64,000 bases of DNA, from assembly GCA_946500615.1 (NCBI GenBank), contig CAMMWP010000005.1, positions 1-64,000 of the forward strand, written 5' to 3'. Below, piece after piece: positions 22,476-29,622 of this stretch. The DNA comes from an uncultured Clostridium sp. GTDB taxonomy: Bacteria; Bacillota; Clostridia; TANB77; CAG-508. The notes under the pieces were generated by a model. It saw nothing but the letters and a program-made list of their open reading frames with translations. It made no database searches and was not told where the DNA came from. Both the position numbers and the translations under genes were made by a program. Numbering within the stretch: the first letter of the stretch is position 1; each line of letters starts with the position of its first letter.

Positions 22476-22568
22476 AAAGTAAATTGGTAACAAAAAATGA
22501 AAAATTTATATACAATACAATAGAGAAAATAGTGAATGAAAAACAAAAGAAAAATAAAGGAGGGGTTT

Positions 22569-23864
22569 ATGAATAAAGTAGAAACATTGTCTATAAAGCA
22601 AAAGGAGTCAACAGGTAAAGTAGATTATATAGTTGCATTAGCAGGCAACCCGAATGTTGGAAAATCAACAATATTTAATAATCTAACGGGAATGAATCAA
22701 CATACTGGAAATTGGACAGGTAAAACAGTTGCAAATGCAACAGGTATTTTTGACTATAGGGGAGAAAAATATCAACTTGTTGATATTCCCGGTACATATT
22801 CCATAATGTCACATTCTGAAGAAGAAGAAATTGCGAGAAATTATATTTGTTTAGGAAATCCAGATACAACAATTGTTGTTGTTGATGCAACTTCTTTAGA
22901 AAGAAATTTGAATTTAGTATTACAAATAACAGAAATAACAGATAATATAGTCGTATGTGTTAATTTGTTGGATGAAGCCAAAAAAAAGAAGATAACAATA
23001 GATTTGGATACATTATCAAAAATACTTAAAGTACCAGTTGTAGGCGTTACTGCTAGAAGTAAATATACATTAAGAGATTTATTAAAGGTAACCAAAAGTG
23101 CATGTAATAATAAAGAAGAGAAAAAAACGATATATCACATAGAATACACAGAAACAATTGAAAAAGTGATTCATGCATTAAAAGTAGTTATCATTGATAA
23201 ATATCATGTAGAAGAAAAATTAGCAAGGTGGATTAGTATAAAACTTTTAGATGACGATGAATGTATTCTAAATGAAATCCAAAAACAGTTAAATATTGAA
23301 TTGATAAATGATAAGGCGATACAAGAAACAAAAAAAGAAATGCTAAGAGAATTAGAAGCTAAGGGAATTGATAAACATGTTTTTAAAGAAAAAATTATAG
23401 CTACAATTGTAAAAAAAGCAGAAGATATTGCTAAAAGAGTTTGTAAGTTCGAAAATAAAAATTATGCAAGTAGAGATAGAAGGATTGACAAAGTTTTAAC
23501 TTCTAAAAAATATGGAATTCCTATTATGCTTTTGTTTTTATTGCTCATCTTTTGGATTACGATTGTAGGAGCGAATTATCCATCACAATTTTTATTCAGC
23601 TTTTTTGGAAATATACAAGAGAAATTAATTGGATTTGCTACATACATACATTGTCCGGAATGGTTATCGAATATGCTGATTTTGGGAGTTTATCAAACTT
23701 TGACATGGGTAATATCTGTTATGCTACCACCAATGGCTATCTTTTTTCCATTATTTACGATATTAGAAGATTTGGGATATTTGCCTAGAATTGCTTTTAA
23801 TATGGATGGCTTTTTTAAAAAGGCTTGCTGTAGTGGGAAACAGATGATAACCATGTGCATGGGA
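22569..23864 (+). pseudogene. feoB: FeoB ferrous iron transporter, N-terminal G-domain/first membrane part, interrupted by element
   Basis: ALAGNPNVGKSTIFNNLTG, GNWTGKTV, DIPGTYS, NLLDEA; frame runs into element (…MCMG-VTKW*) and resumes at 28771. Confidence 0.95.
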
Positions 23865-25472
23865 GTAACAAAGTGGTAATAAATTTTTTTGAGTACCATA
23901 TTTGTTACTCAAAGTGTTTAGTTGCCTGAGTTTGCTTGGCAAATTTATATCAATTAATTCTTTTGTATTTAATATAACTTGTAGTTCTGATTTTTCTTTG
24001 CTGTTTTTTACAATAATTTTATCTAGAAATGTTTCAATATAATTTTCTAAATTTGATTCATTTACATCAAGATGTTTTAATATATTTTTATTTAAAATTT
24101 CTATGTATTGTTTTGTGTTTTTATTTTTTGAAGAACGCACCTGAAATTCTTCCAATTTTGCTTTTAAATCATTTATTTGTGTTTGGATTATATTTAACTT
24201 ATGTTTTAAATCTTCTTTACTTAAAATATCATCTAAAGCTAAATCAAGTAGTTTTTCTTTTTTGTTTAAAAGATTATCAATTTGATTTTGTAATTCTATT
24301 TCTTTATTTTTGTTTCCATTGCTGTGTAAAACTTCAATATAAAAAGATAATAACTCTTGTGAAATTTGTTCTTTGTATTTTTCATAAGATTTAAAAACTT
24401 TTAACAAAATACTATAAATATCTTTTTCTAAAACAAATGAAGTAGAGCAATTTTTTCTTCCAGTATTGTTATAATCTTGGCAAATCCAACGAACTACATC
24501 ACCTTTTGTTTTATAATGCTTAACTTTTCTAACAAAACCACATTTATGCTTTTCACAATATATTTTTCCAGATAGTGCATATTTTGCTTGGTGTTTTTGA
24601 TACATTGCTGAACACTTACTTCTACTTAAAAGTTTTTGATTAGCTTTTTCCCAAAGTTCTTCTGATACAATAGGGGGAACTTTATCATAATCTTGATAAA
24701 CTTTCCATTCTTCTGGTTTGTAAAAATTCCTTTTTTTACTTCTGTAGTCTACAACTGTTGATAAATTGCCAGTATAAAACCCTTTATATTTAGGATTTTG
24801 TATGATTTTTTTCAAAGTGTTTTGATGAATCGGTTTACCATTTCTATTCAAATATCCCATTGTTTCTAACTTTAAAGATAAATTTTTTAATCCAATTTTG
24901 CTATCATTTGCATATATCTCAAAAATATTTTTTACAATAGGAGCTTCGGATTCATCTATAATAAGCTTTCCTTTCTCTTTTTTATACCCCCAAATATTAT
25001 CAGTTCCTAAAACAGTTCCTTTTTCTAGAGCTCTCTTAAAACCAAATTTTGTTCTTTCCGATATTTTACGAACTTCATCTTGTGCCATACTTGACATTAT
25101 TGTAAGTCTTAATTCTCCATCCGATGAGGCCGTAACAATATTATCAGATAAGAAATAAACACAAACATCATATTCTAATAATTTTCTAGTATAAAGCAAA
25201 CTATCAATCGTATCACGAGAAAATCTTGAAACTTCTTTAGTTACAATTAAATCAAATTTTTTATTTTTTCCGTCTTCGACCATTCTCATAAAATTTTCAC
25301 GCTTTAATGATGTTGTACCACTTATTCCTTCATCAACATATCCTTTTATAAAAATCCAATTTGTATTTTTTTTGATGTATTCTTCAAAAAAACTAACTTG
25401 ATTTTCTAGTGAGTTTATTTGTTCTTCTTTTTCGGTTGATACTCTTGCATAATATGTTACTTTTAAATTCAA
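23763..25472 (-). CDS. Large serine recombinase (resolvase N-terminus, recombinase and zinc-ribbon domains); C-terminus reads across att into feoB antisense
   Basis: YYARVSTEKEEQINSLENQ, DEGISGT, VSRFSRDT, SSMAQDEVRKISERTKFGFKRALEKG, zinc-ribbon region CEKHKCGFVRK…WICQDYNNTGRKNC. Confidence 0.95.
   Translation of the reverse strand: MNLKVTYYARVSTEKEEQINSLENQVSFFEEYIKKNTNWIFIKGYVDEGISGTTSLKRENFMRMVEDGKNKKFDLIVTKEVSRFSRDTIDSLLYTRKLLEYDVCVYFLSDNIVTASSDGELRLTIMSSMAQDEVRKISERTKFGFKRALEKGTVLGTDNIWGYKKEKGKLIIDESEAPIVKNIFEIYANDSKIGLKNLSLKLETMGYLNRNGKPIHQNTLKKIIQNPKYKGFYTGNLSTVVDYRSKKRNFYKPEEWKVYQDYDKVPPIVSEELWEKANQKLLSRSKCSAMYQKHQAKYALSGKIYCEKHKCGFVRKVKHYKTKGDVVRWICQDYNNTGRKNCSTSFVLEKDIYSILLKVFKSYEKYKEQISQELLSFYIEVLHSNGNKNKEIELQNQIDNLLNKKEKLLDLALDDILSKEDLKHKLNIIQTQINDLKAKLEEFQVRSSKNKNTKQYIEILNKNILKHLDVNESNLENYIETFLDKIIVKNSKEKSELQVILNTKELIDINLPSKLRQLNTLSNKYGTQKNLLPLCYSHAHGYHLFPTTASLFKKAIHIKSNSRQISQIF
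23850..23864 (+). other. Left attachment-site core (att junction of serine-recombinase element)
   Basis: ACCATGTGCATGGGA, identical to 28771-28785. Confidence 0.9.
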
Positions 25473-25592
25473 ATCAAATATTGTTTTTCCGTGATGATAA
25501 TTCTTGTTTCATTTCATATAAGGTCATTTATAACTCCTTTCTCAAACCTTATACAATTAATACCTATCAAATATATCACAATTGCCTAAAGT

Positions 25593-25739
25593 TCTCTAGT
25601 TTTTTTATTTAATTCATATAATAATTTTAATAATTTTTCTTTAACTAATTTATATGTATTTTCGTCAATCATTTTTTCTTCATAGAGTTTTTGATTAACT
25701 ATATTTTCAATGTTATATTTTATAAATTTATCTTTCATA
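25593..25739 (-). CDS. Small element-associated protein (MKDKFIKYNIENIVNQKLYEEKMIDENTYKLVKEKLLKLLYELNKKTREL)
   Basis: Manual reading of minus strand; charged helical short ORF beside the LSR (coordinates approximate). Confidence 0.5.
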
Positions 25740-25766
25740 GTTCATATATATTAAAATTTTTATATG

Positions 25767-26097
25767 TTATTCATTAGAAATAACATTATTTTTCCATTGA
25801 TTGTTAGTATATAATTTTTCAAAATTCTCTATTGTGTAATTTCTTTGTGTAAAATTAGTTTCTTTTTTATTAAAATTATTTTTATTATATTTAATATTAT
25901 TATTTCGGATTTTTTCTGTATGAGTTATAGAAAATTTTCCGAATCTTTCTATAAAAAGTATATAAAATAAGCTTTGCGTTAGAACTTATTTTAAAGTATT
26001 CTTTGATATGCAATAATTTATTTGGCACAGGAATAAATTGATAGTTCAAAATTTCATCTGTTATTTTTAATAGTTTCATCTTTTTCCTTTCAAACAC
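25767..26097 (-). pseudogene. RepA_N-like replication initiator fragment, 1-nt frameshift
   Basis: MKLLKITDEILNYQFIPVPNKLLHIKEYFKISSNAK | LFYILFIERFGKFSITHTEKIR…YTIENFEKLYTNNQW…NE* when shifted by one base near 25971. Confidence 0.6.
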
Positions 26098-26569
26098 GAA
26101 AAATCAAGAGAAATTTGAAACTTAAACTTTCTCTTGCTTCAATATTTATTATTTTAGATACTACTATTTTAACAGATAAAAAATTGCTTGTATACTGCAT
26201 GATTTTGCAATGTTTTTGCAAAATGTTATGTTAAATATATAGATAATTTACTTGAATTTTAAGTAGTAATTTTAGTAAAAAATACACCGAAGTGTATGTT
26301 ATCTGCATAATATCTGCCAATTTCTTTACTAAACAGAGCATTAGAAAGCTTGACTTTCTAACTATTAGCAGAAAACCCTCTGCTTTTCTTATTCTGCCAT
26401 TAATATTTGGAAGTAGAATAAAATTTTTATAAAATAGGTATTGACTGTAGCAAACAAAAGTTTTATAATATATTCGTATTAAAAATATAAATTTTATTCA
26501 AAAGATAAATAATGTACTGAATAATGGTATAGAAGTTGATAACCAATTTTTAACAAAGGAGAGATTATA

Positions 26570-27148
26570 TTGCAAGTAGAATTAACAAAAGTACAAAATT
26601 TATTAGAGTGGATAAAAACTAAATTATTTTTAGATTCAAATTCTGTAAAATCAATAAAAAGAGTAGTAAGAAGAGGTGAAATATATAAATGTAATTTTGG
26701 TATAGGAATTGGTTCAGAAATTCAAAAAGAAAGACCTTGTATCATTGTGCAAAATAATACAAGAAATTCACGTTCAGGAAATGTTATTGTCGTTCCAATA
26801 TCTCACACAAATAAAAATATATCTTGTATTGTACCAATAGATACTAAAAAAGACAAAGAAGGCGAAATTATTTTAGATGGATATGCCAATGTTTCTAATT
26901 TAATGTGTGTAAGTAAAGCGAGATTAGGTACATATATTGCAAAACTATCTAAAGAAGAAATAAAAAGAGTTGATACTGAATTAATGTCTACTTTAGATTT
27001 GATACAGTATTATAAAAAACTTGAAAATCAATTAAAGGATAGAGAACTATATATTAGTAAATTAAAAGGGCAAATTAATGAGCTTAAGAAAATAACTAAT
27101 ACAGAAAATTTTGAAAGTTTAAAACAAAAAATTTTTGAAAAAATGTAG
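26570..27148 (+). CDS. PemK/MazF-family toxin-like protein with N-terminal and C-terminal extensions
   Basis: RRGEIYKCNFGIGIGSEIQKERPCIIVQNNTRNSRSGNVIVVPIS…NVSNLMCVSKARLG; TTG start after AAAGGAGAG. Confidence 0.88.
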   Translation: MQVELTKVQNLLEWIKTKLFLDSNSVKSIKRVVRRGEIYKCNFGIGIGSEIQKERPCIIVQNNTRNSRSGNVIVVPISHTNKNISCIVPIDTKKDKEGEIILDGYANVSNLMCVSKARLGTYIAKLSKEEIKRVDTELMSTLDLIQYYKKLENQLKDRELYISKLKGQINELKKITNTENFESLKQKIFEKM

Positions 27149-27177
27149 ACAAACAAATATTTTTCATGCTATAATTA
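27147..27177 (+). promoter_or_regulatory. Putative promoter for small RNA unit
   Basis: TAGACA (27147-27152), 19-nt spacing, TATAAT near 27172. Confidence 0.45.
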
Positions 27178-27178
27178 A

Positions 27179-27255
27179 ATTACAATAAAATTGTTGTTAG
27201 AATACAACAATCGTAATAAACTTTGAAGAAAAAAGAGCCTAGAATGGCTCTTTAG
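27179..27255 (+). ncRNA. Putative small structured RNA unit 1 (hairpin + terminator hairpin)
   Basis: attgttgt-TAGAAT-acaacaat at 27190-27211; aaagagcc-TAGAAT-ggctcttt at 27232-27253. Confidence 0.45.
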
Positions 27256-27293
27256 CATTTTTATGAATAAATTTTAACTTTAAATAATATACT

Positions 27294-27365
27294 ATTATTA
27301 CAATAAAGTCATAATTAGAATGTTATGACCGTATTAAAAGGATACTAGTTTTTTTAGTATCCTTA
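27294..27365 (+). ncRNA. Putative small structured RNA unit 2 (hairpin + terminator-like hairpin)
   Basis: gtcataat-TAGAAT-gttatgac at 27308-27329; aaggatact…agtatcctt at 27338-27364. Confidence 0.4.
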
Positions 27366-27414
27366 ATATTTACTTTAATAGTTTAAAACTATATATTTCA
27401 ATTTATTATACTTA

Positions 27415-28047
27415 TTATAAGTTTTTATTCTGTATAGTATTTACTACTTCATCTATTTTTAGTTTTATATCTTCAATATTCAAGTTATTTTCAATAAAAA
27501 AATTAGCTTTATAACCATAATCATTTAAGGCTGTTATTTTTACTCTTTTTTCTATCGCCTCTTGTTCATATGACCAATAAGATCTATCGCCATAACCATA
27601 TATGTTACTATCTTTTAATCTATTAATTAATCTGTTTAGTCGTTTATTATAATCTGCATATACACATACTGTATAATTACAAATATCATATAATCTAGTT
27701 AAAGGAATGGCATACCAATCTATTATTACATAATCATATTTACCTTTATACAAATTTATCTCATTTAGTACATTTAAACATACATCTTTTTCCATAATTC
27801 CTATTGCTATTTTATTTATTTCTAAAGATTGTACTGTATGATTGCAAATATATTTATTTCTATCGGAACCTTTAATATTTAATGTGTTTAATATTTCCTC
27901 TCTTTTAATATCAAATTGTTCATGCATATATTGATCAACATTAACTATTATTGAGTTATTTATTTTCTTATTTATAATTTTTGAAACTGTACTTTTTCCA
28001 GTTCCACTTCCACCAAAAACTCCTATTATTTTCATATTTTTTTCCAA
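27415..28047 (-). CDS. P-loop kinase, CoaE/uridine-kinase-like
   Basis: IIGVFGGSGTGKSTVSKIINKK Walker A; VIIDWYAIPL; RLNRLINRLKD. Confidence 0.7.
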   Translation of the reverse strand: MEKNMKIIGVFGGSGTGKSTVSKIINKKINNSIIVNVDQYMHEQFDIKREEILNTLNIKGSDRNKYICNHTVQSLEINKIAIGIMEKDVCLNVLNEINLYKGKYDYVIIDWYAIPLTRLYDICNYTVCVYADYNKRLNRLINRLKDSNIYGYGDRSYWSYEQEAIEKRVKITALNDYGYKANFFIENNLNIEDIKLKIDEVVNTIQNKNL

Positions 28048-28578
28048 TTAACATTTTTTACATTTTTCTATAATATCAGTAGTGTGATGTCTAAATTCTT
28101 TATTATTTTGGTCTTCGAGAAGTTTGACATTCAACTCATTGCAAATGTCGACAATTGATTCATATGGCTTTATATTTGGTATGTAAAAATAAATATCAGG
28201 TTTTAACTTTTCAATTACATATCCATCTTTTTTCAATTTGCATTGATTCTTTGTATCATACTTATTTTTATATATTAAATTAGTAATCAAAGGTGTTAGA
28301 TGCTCTTCATCTAATAATAGAGTATAATCTACATATTTAATACTATCAATGATTTCCATTCTTTCATCTTGAGGAATAATTGGGCGATTTTTTCCTTTTT
28401 CTTTTAAATCTTGATCTGTTTTTACTTCAACAACTAAAATATCAACTTTTTCTTTATTCTTTTTTAGAAGTTGCAAATGGTCATAATGAAATAAATCCCA
28501 ACTGCCCTTTACAATTCCTATTGTTTTATTTTTATGTTTCTTTCTTATTCTATCTAAATCATTATAATCTATAATCAT
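28048..28578 (-). CDS. Cytidylyltransferase/adenylyltransferase-family nucleotidyltransferase
   Basis: GIVKGSWDLFHYDHLQLLKK (HxxH-like NTase motif), RPIIPQDERMEIIDSIKYVD. Confidence 0.82.
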   Translation of the reverse strand: MIIDYNDLDRIRKKHKNKTIGIVKGSWDLFHYDHLQLLKKNKEKVDILVVEVKTDQDLKEKGKNRPIIPQDERMEIIDSIKYVDYTLLLDEEHLTPLITNLIYKNKYDTKNQCKLKKDGYVIEKLKPDIYFYIPNIKPYESIVDICNELNVKLLEDQNNKEFRHHTTDIIEKCKKC

Positions 28579-28770
28579 ACACTAACTCCTTACTAATTAC
28601 TATTTTTACAAAATGATTATATCACAATGTTCTTTTATAAACAATAAGAATCGTATTAGTTGTATAAGGTTAATTTTTATTTATAATTTAAAATAAACAT
28701 CATAATAAATTTTATCAAACATAATTTTTTCTTGCTTGTCCAATAATTCTAGGGTTACCATATTGTCACT

Positions 28771-28785
28771 ACCATGTGCATGGGA
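28771..28785 (+). other. Right attachment-site core
   Basis: ACCATGTGCATGGGA, duplicate of 23850-23864. Confidence 0.9.
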
Positions 28786-29622
28786 TTTGGTTGTAATAGT
28801 TGTGGAGTTACAGGATGCCGAATTATAGACTCACCAAGAGAAAGGTTAATAGCTATATTAACCAACAATTTTGTTCCATGTAACGGAAGATTTCCTTTTT
28901 TAATCACAGTTGCAACCATATTTATAGCAGGAACGATGGGGGGAATAAGAGCTTCGCTTATATCTACATTAGTGGTAATGTTTGTAATTGTCCTAGGGAT
29001 CATTATGACTTTAGTCATATCTAAAATATTATCAAAAACCATATTAAAAGGAATGCCGTCTTCTTTTGTATTAGAATTACCACCATATCGAAAACCACAA
29101 TTCTTGAAAGTACTAGTTAGGTCTATTTTTGATAGAACCATCTTCATATTAGGAAGAGCAATCGCAGTGGCAGCGCCTGCTGGTCTTGTCATATGGTTAT
29201 TTGCTAACATTGGAATTCAAGGAGAAAGCTTACTGACTATTATTGCAAATTTTTTAGAGCCATTGGCTAATCTTATGGGCTTAGATGGATATATATTAAC
29301 AGCATTTATTTTAGGGATACCTGCAAATGAGATTGTACTTCCCATTATACTCATGTGTTATATACAAGGAACTTCTTTGGTAAATATGGAAGATACTTTT
29401 GCCATAGGAGAGATTTTAAGACAAAATGGATGGACGATATTAACCGCGATAAATGTAATGTTATTTACAGTATTTCATTTTCCTTGTGCGACAACTTTAC
29501 TTACAATTAAGAAAGAAACAGGAAGCTTGAAATGGACGGTTATTAGTTTTTTAATTCCAACGGTTTGTGGAATTGTTGTTTGTATATTGACGACTTTGGT
29601 ATATAATATTTTTCTATTGTGA
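28774..29622 (+). pseudogene. feoB: FeoB C-terminal part (displaced by the element)
   Basis: MCMGFGCNSCGVTGCRIIDSPRERLIAILTNNFVPCNGRFP, conserved FeoB core after the att junction. Confidence 0.95.

Follow-up and report, generated by a model that had tools for sequence, protein, structure and literature searches.

A PemK/MazF-type endoribonuclease gene and an array of hairpins directly 3' of it appear to form a toxin-antitoxin (TA) module with an RNA antitoxin; both lie in a 64,000-nt stretch of DNA from an uncultured Clostridium sp. (GenBank assembly GCA_946500615.1, contig CAMMWP010000005.1, positions 1 to 64,000), which is called the window below. The hairpins, which differ in their stems and share the loop TAGAAT, are most likely the core of a non-coding RNA that has its own promoter and acts as a type III-like antitoxin of the endoribonuclease, a reading to which, from sequence, a probability of about two in three can be given. 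Comparison between genomes shows an RNA gene with a promoter, at least two hairpin units and a terminator, the stems of which are under selection for pairing; from the same kind of data we infer that the RNA would inhibit the toxin.

The toxin gene of the window (26570..27148, + strand, TTG start, 192 amino acids) was taken from the open reading frame (ORF) list, and its product matches Pfam PF02452 (E=1.1e-22) as well as MazF entries in the PDB. A sigma-70-type promoter, TAGACA-18-TATAAT, lies over its stop codon (27146..27175, + strand); its location ahead of unit 1 of the array had been proposed in the original prediction made from the window alone. It has 11/12 matches, an equally good promoter occurred in 1/200 shuffles, and its position would place the transcription start at about 27180. 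The three hairpins of that prediction, with identical loops and stems of 8 bp, were recovered exactly, with perfect pairing that includes one G-U pair: the hairpin of unit 1 (ATTGTTGT-TAGAAT-ACAACAAT, 27190-27211, + strand), hairpin 2 (AAAGAGCC-TAGAAT-GGCTCTTT, 27232..27253, + strand), which is terminator-like as well and is retained in clade I relatives, and the hairpin of unit 3 (27308-27329). Unit 1 (27179..27217, + strand) consists of an outer helix, ATTAC/GTAAT, a single-stranded ACAATAAA, which contains UACA, and the hairpin, while unit 3 (27297..27335, + strand) reads ATTACAATAAA-GTCATAAT-TAGAAT-GTTATGAC-CGTATT and has the sequence TATACT 5' of it, at 27288-27293. Both units carry the proposed frame TTACAATAAA-hairpin-CGTA without deviation; the outer pairing claimed for both is complete in unit 1 and has one mismatch in unit 3, where the second strand is GTATT. 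The claim of a terminator-like hairpin after every unit holds in a particular sense, with two such hairpins confirmed: hairpin 2 is itself the one after unit 1, and an intrinsic-terminator-like hairpin at 27338..27364 (+ strand) follows unit 3 and closes the array. The U-tracts of this terminator are stronger in two relatives (L082, L083).

Such an arrangement is not expected by chance. The 352 nt 3' of the toxin gene contain three pairs of hairpins with a common loop and different stems, in comparison to a mean of 0.0065 in dinucleotide shuffles, 0/2000 of which reached three. In the whole window, 53 perfect hairpins with 8-bp stems and 6-nt loops were found, and TAGAAT was the sole loop that occurred three times; the word TAGAAT itself is not enriched (75 observed versus 101 expected). 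The array region folds with a z score of -5.1, and none of the 4227 Rfam models matched over the arrays.

The original prediction took covarying stems around a fixed loop as a sign of selected structure and asked for further copies with compensatory changes; genome searches have found them in many genomes. Beyond it, two features emerged, namely that the arrays are linked to MazF systematically throughout Bacillota and that the loop is characteristic of the toxin clade. The general unit consists of UACAAAKA, one arm of a 6-10 bp stem, the loop, the other arm and (A/C)GUA(A/U)U, and UACAAAKA, which is predicted to be single-stranded, is conserved 5' of the hairpin across clades. The loops are UAGAAU in clade I (that of the window), AGGAY in clade II, UWUC-like in clade III, ACGAGUG in clade IV, an NNNG tetraloop in clade V and CGAWGW on the Bacillus plasmid. 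The stems vary freely and their pairing is maintained; for example, clade IV contains 15 distinct hairpins with the loop ACGAGUG or AUGAAUG, the stems of which differ at every pair. Every occurrence of a loop word was taken, so that hairpins were not chosen for pairing: the flanks pair at 8/8 positions at 17/17 TAGAA[TGA] sites within clade I arrays versus 0/65 elsewhere in the same loci, and they pair at 12/12 ACGAGTG sites. The covariation score is 1.08 in clade I (0.38 when shuffled) and 1.22 in the ACGAGUG clade (0.26 when shuffled). At the level of sequence, no consistent loop complement for pseudoknots or kissing loops was found in the arrays.

The arrays accompany the toxin over a wide phylogenetic range, although it should be noted that many of the loci stem from metagenome-assembled genomes. 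The strict pattern TTACAATAAA-N8-TAGAAT-N8-CGTA was found in three public Clostridia contigs, a genome of the same genus contains a copy with the loop TAGAAG and a stem that is different yet paired, and a covariance model of the unit detected arrays of two units in further genera of the family. Loose-pattern matches, most matches with 2-3 mismatches and the weak R1 matches in six genomes (G060, G080, G161, G197, G261 and G424) were rejected as chance. In the group of close toxins (~47-79% identity), a promoter and a hairpin array are present directly 3' of the stop codon in 18/18 intact genes (the window, L054, L078, L080, L082-L094 and L128), and accordingly intact homologues without the RNA number 0/18. 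A toxin profile (A3) reaches other families of Bacillota, where arrays again lie 3' of the gene, and further arrays were found on plasmids of Bacillus velezensis (L112; NZ_CP130609, toxin WP_060387310.1) and Fusobacterium nucleatum (L111). Most loci have 2-4 units per array, and most homologous loci have a promoter at the equivalent position with 11/12 matches. Next to the mapped canonical MazF genes (L098, L099, L101-L103), no array of the window kind was seen, and tblastn against phages yielded weak matches only (about 28-36% identity).

The location of most arrays, immediately downstream of the toxin gene and on its strand, and the terminator-like character of the hairpins would also fit a structured 3' untranslated region (UTR) and terminator complex of the mazF mRNA, which might control its stability or be cleaved by MazF in autoregulation. 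This explanation is unlikely. The array has its own promoter at the stop codon, and units can stand alone (L021, L022). Furthermore, a more distant PemK group (~30% identity) has a different RNA that is conserved within the group and is encoded on the toxin strand in two loci (L106, L109) and on the other strand in three (L100, L105, L110), with a TATAAT-like box in either orientation; thus, at least in this side group, the RNA is not a 3' UTR. Lastly, the RNA has been kept at four loci with a truncated or shifted toxin frame (L095, L096, L117, L127), the truncated genes of L095 and L117 speaking against a mere 3' UTR, and both toxin and RNA have been lost at a fifth (L097). An RNA that is kept while the toxin is broken is the trace expected of an antidote and its poison. 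In a further PemK group, the proteins of which have a long N-terminal part (L107, L108), a conserved structured RNA peculiar to the group lies downstream and contains the hairpin GTTAAC...CTGCCGAAAGGC...GCATAG.

The predicted toxin of the window retains the RP and PI(S/T) segments that are conserved in the MazF core and extends this core by an N-terminal helix and a C-terminal coiled coil. In tested toxins from several clades, PF02452 (PemK_toxin) was the sole Pfam match; the Pfam family ToxN_toxin (ToxN/AbiQ, CptN, TenpN) did not match them, and no specific NCBIfam family was found. Single-sequence structure prediction was poor (predicted local distance difference test score, pLDDT, of 58) and was left unused for fold searches. 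Upstream of the window toxin, the ORF list contains no antitoxin-like small ORF that could be a MazE/PemI-type antitoxin gene. At four other loci (L079, L080, L084, L106), a conserved gene of 110-127 amino acids adjoins the toxin gene upstream; its product (MKYxYNKLVRDKIPENI...) has no Pfam match and resembles MazG-like pyrophosphohydrolases.

The module probably represents a new family of RNA-neutralized TA systems, in which solitary MazF/PemK proteins from Bacillota and Fusobacteriota are kept in check by RNAs encoded next to them, which present a clade-own loop beside a UACA bait. MazF of Bacillus and Staphylococcus cleaves at U^ACAU (PMC5408214), and the UACA of the units matches this site of the Bacillus enzyme. 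The cognate MazF would bind the units via its RNA groove, with the clade-specific loop as the identity tag that it recognizes and UACA, the core of U^ACAU, as a bait in or near the active groove, so that the array RNA, perhaps processed by the toxin, would block it. If each toxin clade reads its own loop, the loop would co-evolve with the toxin, and the stems would be free to drift. Upon loss of the element or arrest of its transcription, a labile RNA would vanish first and the freed toxin might stabilize the element or abort phage infection.

A clade-specific loop and a UACA motif would fit any cognate RNA-protein pair, and the RNA might guide or activate the MazF-like enzyme or be sensed by it instead of inhibiting it. 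This is improbable, in that the persistence of an intact RNA beside a broken toxin and the lack of intact close homologues without the RNA are both as expected for an antidote. A small RNA beside a toxin gene also recalls type I systems, in which the antitoxin is an antisense RNA that would pair with the mazF mRNA, and such pairs are known in Clostridia (PMC6563280). A type I antitoxin is nevertheless very unlikely: there is no antisense overlap between mazF and the RNA, the stem sequences of the RNA drift freely, unlike a pairing site, and its duplex energies with the ribosome-binding/start region of mazF were no better than those of shuffles at the ten loci tested, from which L116, L118, L120, L125 and L126 had been excluded since the mazF start was misplaced. 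A 12-nt inverted repeat (I7) between the terminator and mazF looks like chance in AT-rich sequence.

Several observations weigh against an RNA antitoxin that is tied to its toxin clade by the loop. Loop labels and clades were defined after inspection of the data, and thus the distribution of labels on the toxin tree, with 7 changes as the minimum for 8 labels and 0/200 shuffles as low, shows clustering, not cause. The loops are strictly constant in the UAGAAU and ACGAGUG clades and alike, not identical, elsewhere; the exact test for shared loops within a locus reaches significance in no clades other than I and IV, so that for the remaining clades the claim is based on loop similarity. The promoters of clade V are no better than those of shuffles. 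The outer helix is nearly invariant and, because it hardly varies, unproven. Solitary PemK genes on two Paenibacillaceae plasmids (L113, L114) have no array, and therefore not every PemK that lacks MazE has such an RNA. Conversely, the orphan units of L021 and L022 have no neighboring MazF. The unit of L021 (4120-4202, - strand) is of the unit 3 type and stands alone between other genes, with a promoter and a terminator; genes for a NUDIX protein and an Xre-type regulator are nearby, and no MazF is present on the 7.4 kb covered.

With the type III systems ToxIN, CptIN and TenpIN (PMC5086642), the module shares an endoribonuclease toxin with a MazF-like fold, RNA units that are repeated in multiple copies per locus, and units that differ between toxin clades and track them. 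It differs from them in that the toxin is PF02452 PemK/MazF by sequence, that the RNA is downstream or convergent and has its own promoter, whereas theirs precedes the toxin gene in a shared operon and is separated from it by a terminator, and that the units look like plain hairpins, for which a loop complement that would form an H-type pseudoknot was not found. The module would thus work like type III, but in toxin family and gene order it departs from two defining features of the ToxIN superfamily. Among described systems of Clostridia, the nearest analogue is AbiF/RCd22 of Clostridioides difficile (PMC12373285, RF03085), in which a toxic protein is likewise neutralized by an RNA that is encoded next to it and contains two repeated motifs; there RNA and protein are in direct contact, as proposed here, the protein is unrelated (Abi_2/AbiD/F family), and the RNA is different and lies upstream of the toxin gene. 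AvcID (PMC10511110) also pairs a protein toxin with an RNA antitoxin, its toxin being a deoxycytidylate deaminase. The type II systems MazEF/PemIK share the toxin family PF02452; here, no MazE is evident and an RNA array is found instead. DUF3800-I and related RNAs (RF02969) are several different structured RNAs named after one protein family. They differ from the present RNAs in the associated protein, and one copy of DUF3800-I is by coincidence found close to a MazF locus (L093, 1054-1179, + strand), a few hundred bases past the MazF gene and on the other strand. In the searchable full-text literature, with most subscription journals and bioRxiv preprints beyond reach, no description of an RNA antitoxin for a MazF/PemK toxin was found, and priority for the pairing is not assured.

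The toxins of type III systems, which are inhibited by RNA repeats, share the MazF fold (PMC5086642), which raises the question of how a lineage of protein-inhibited RNases became RNA-inhibited. If the proposed reading is true, a MazF/PemK subfamily that has its own RNA partner would bridge type II MazF and type III ToxN as a missing link, and many 'orphan' PemK/MazF genes would have to be re-annotated. Antidote RNAs might then be located downstream of the toxin or opposite to it, positions in which they would escape a search for repeats upstream of the gene. In addition, the clade-specific loops offer ready cognate and non-cognate pairs for studies of RNA-protein specificity and its evolution.

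The source genome, from uncultured Clostridia, has 2.0 Mb in 82 contigs, and the module is part of a mobile element. In the region 22536-29622 of the window, an element of roughly 4.9 kb that encodes a large serine recombinase (23763..25472, - strand; PF00239, PF07508, PF13408) splits feoB, and ATGTGCATGGG is present at both junctions: the left copy (23853..23863, + strand) is the probable attachment core inside feoB, and feoB resumes at the right copy (28774..28784, + strand). The location inside this element, and that of the L022 hairpins near a feoB junction, might suggest that the hairpins act as single-stranded DNA for a recombinase, relaxase or transposase, an alternative that the original prediction had left beside RNA. 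It is extremely unlikely, given that the arrays track MazF and not a particular recombinase, and that they are found, together with promoters and terminators, on plasmids and chromosomes that are unrelated. RNA is favored over single-stranded DNA as the selected structure because of the conserved promoter, the terminator and the tight link to the toxin gene.

The same element also carries a small P-loop kinase gene (CoaE/AAA_18-like) and a cytidylyltransferase-like gene (27415-28578, - strand). Similar insertions into feoB are present in G070 (L078) and probably in G076 (L022), while MazF modules adjoin an intact feoB in G021 (L054) and lie near feoB in G090 (L080). In G021, sequences that resemble the two termini (5' and 3') of a group II intron are found at the end of L054 and the start of L055/L023. 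They separate hairpin 2 from unit 3, as would an intron that had entered immediately past the terminator-like hairpin.
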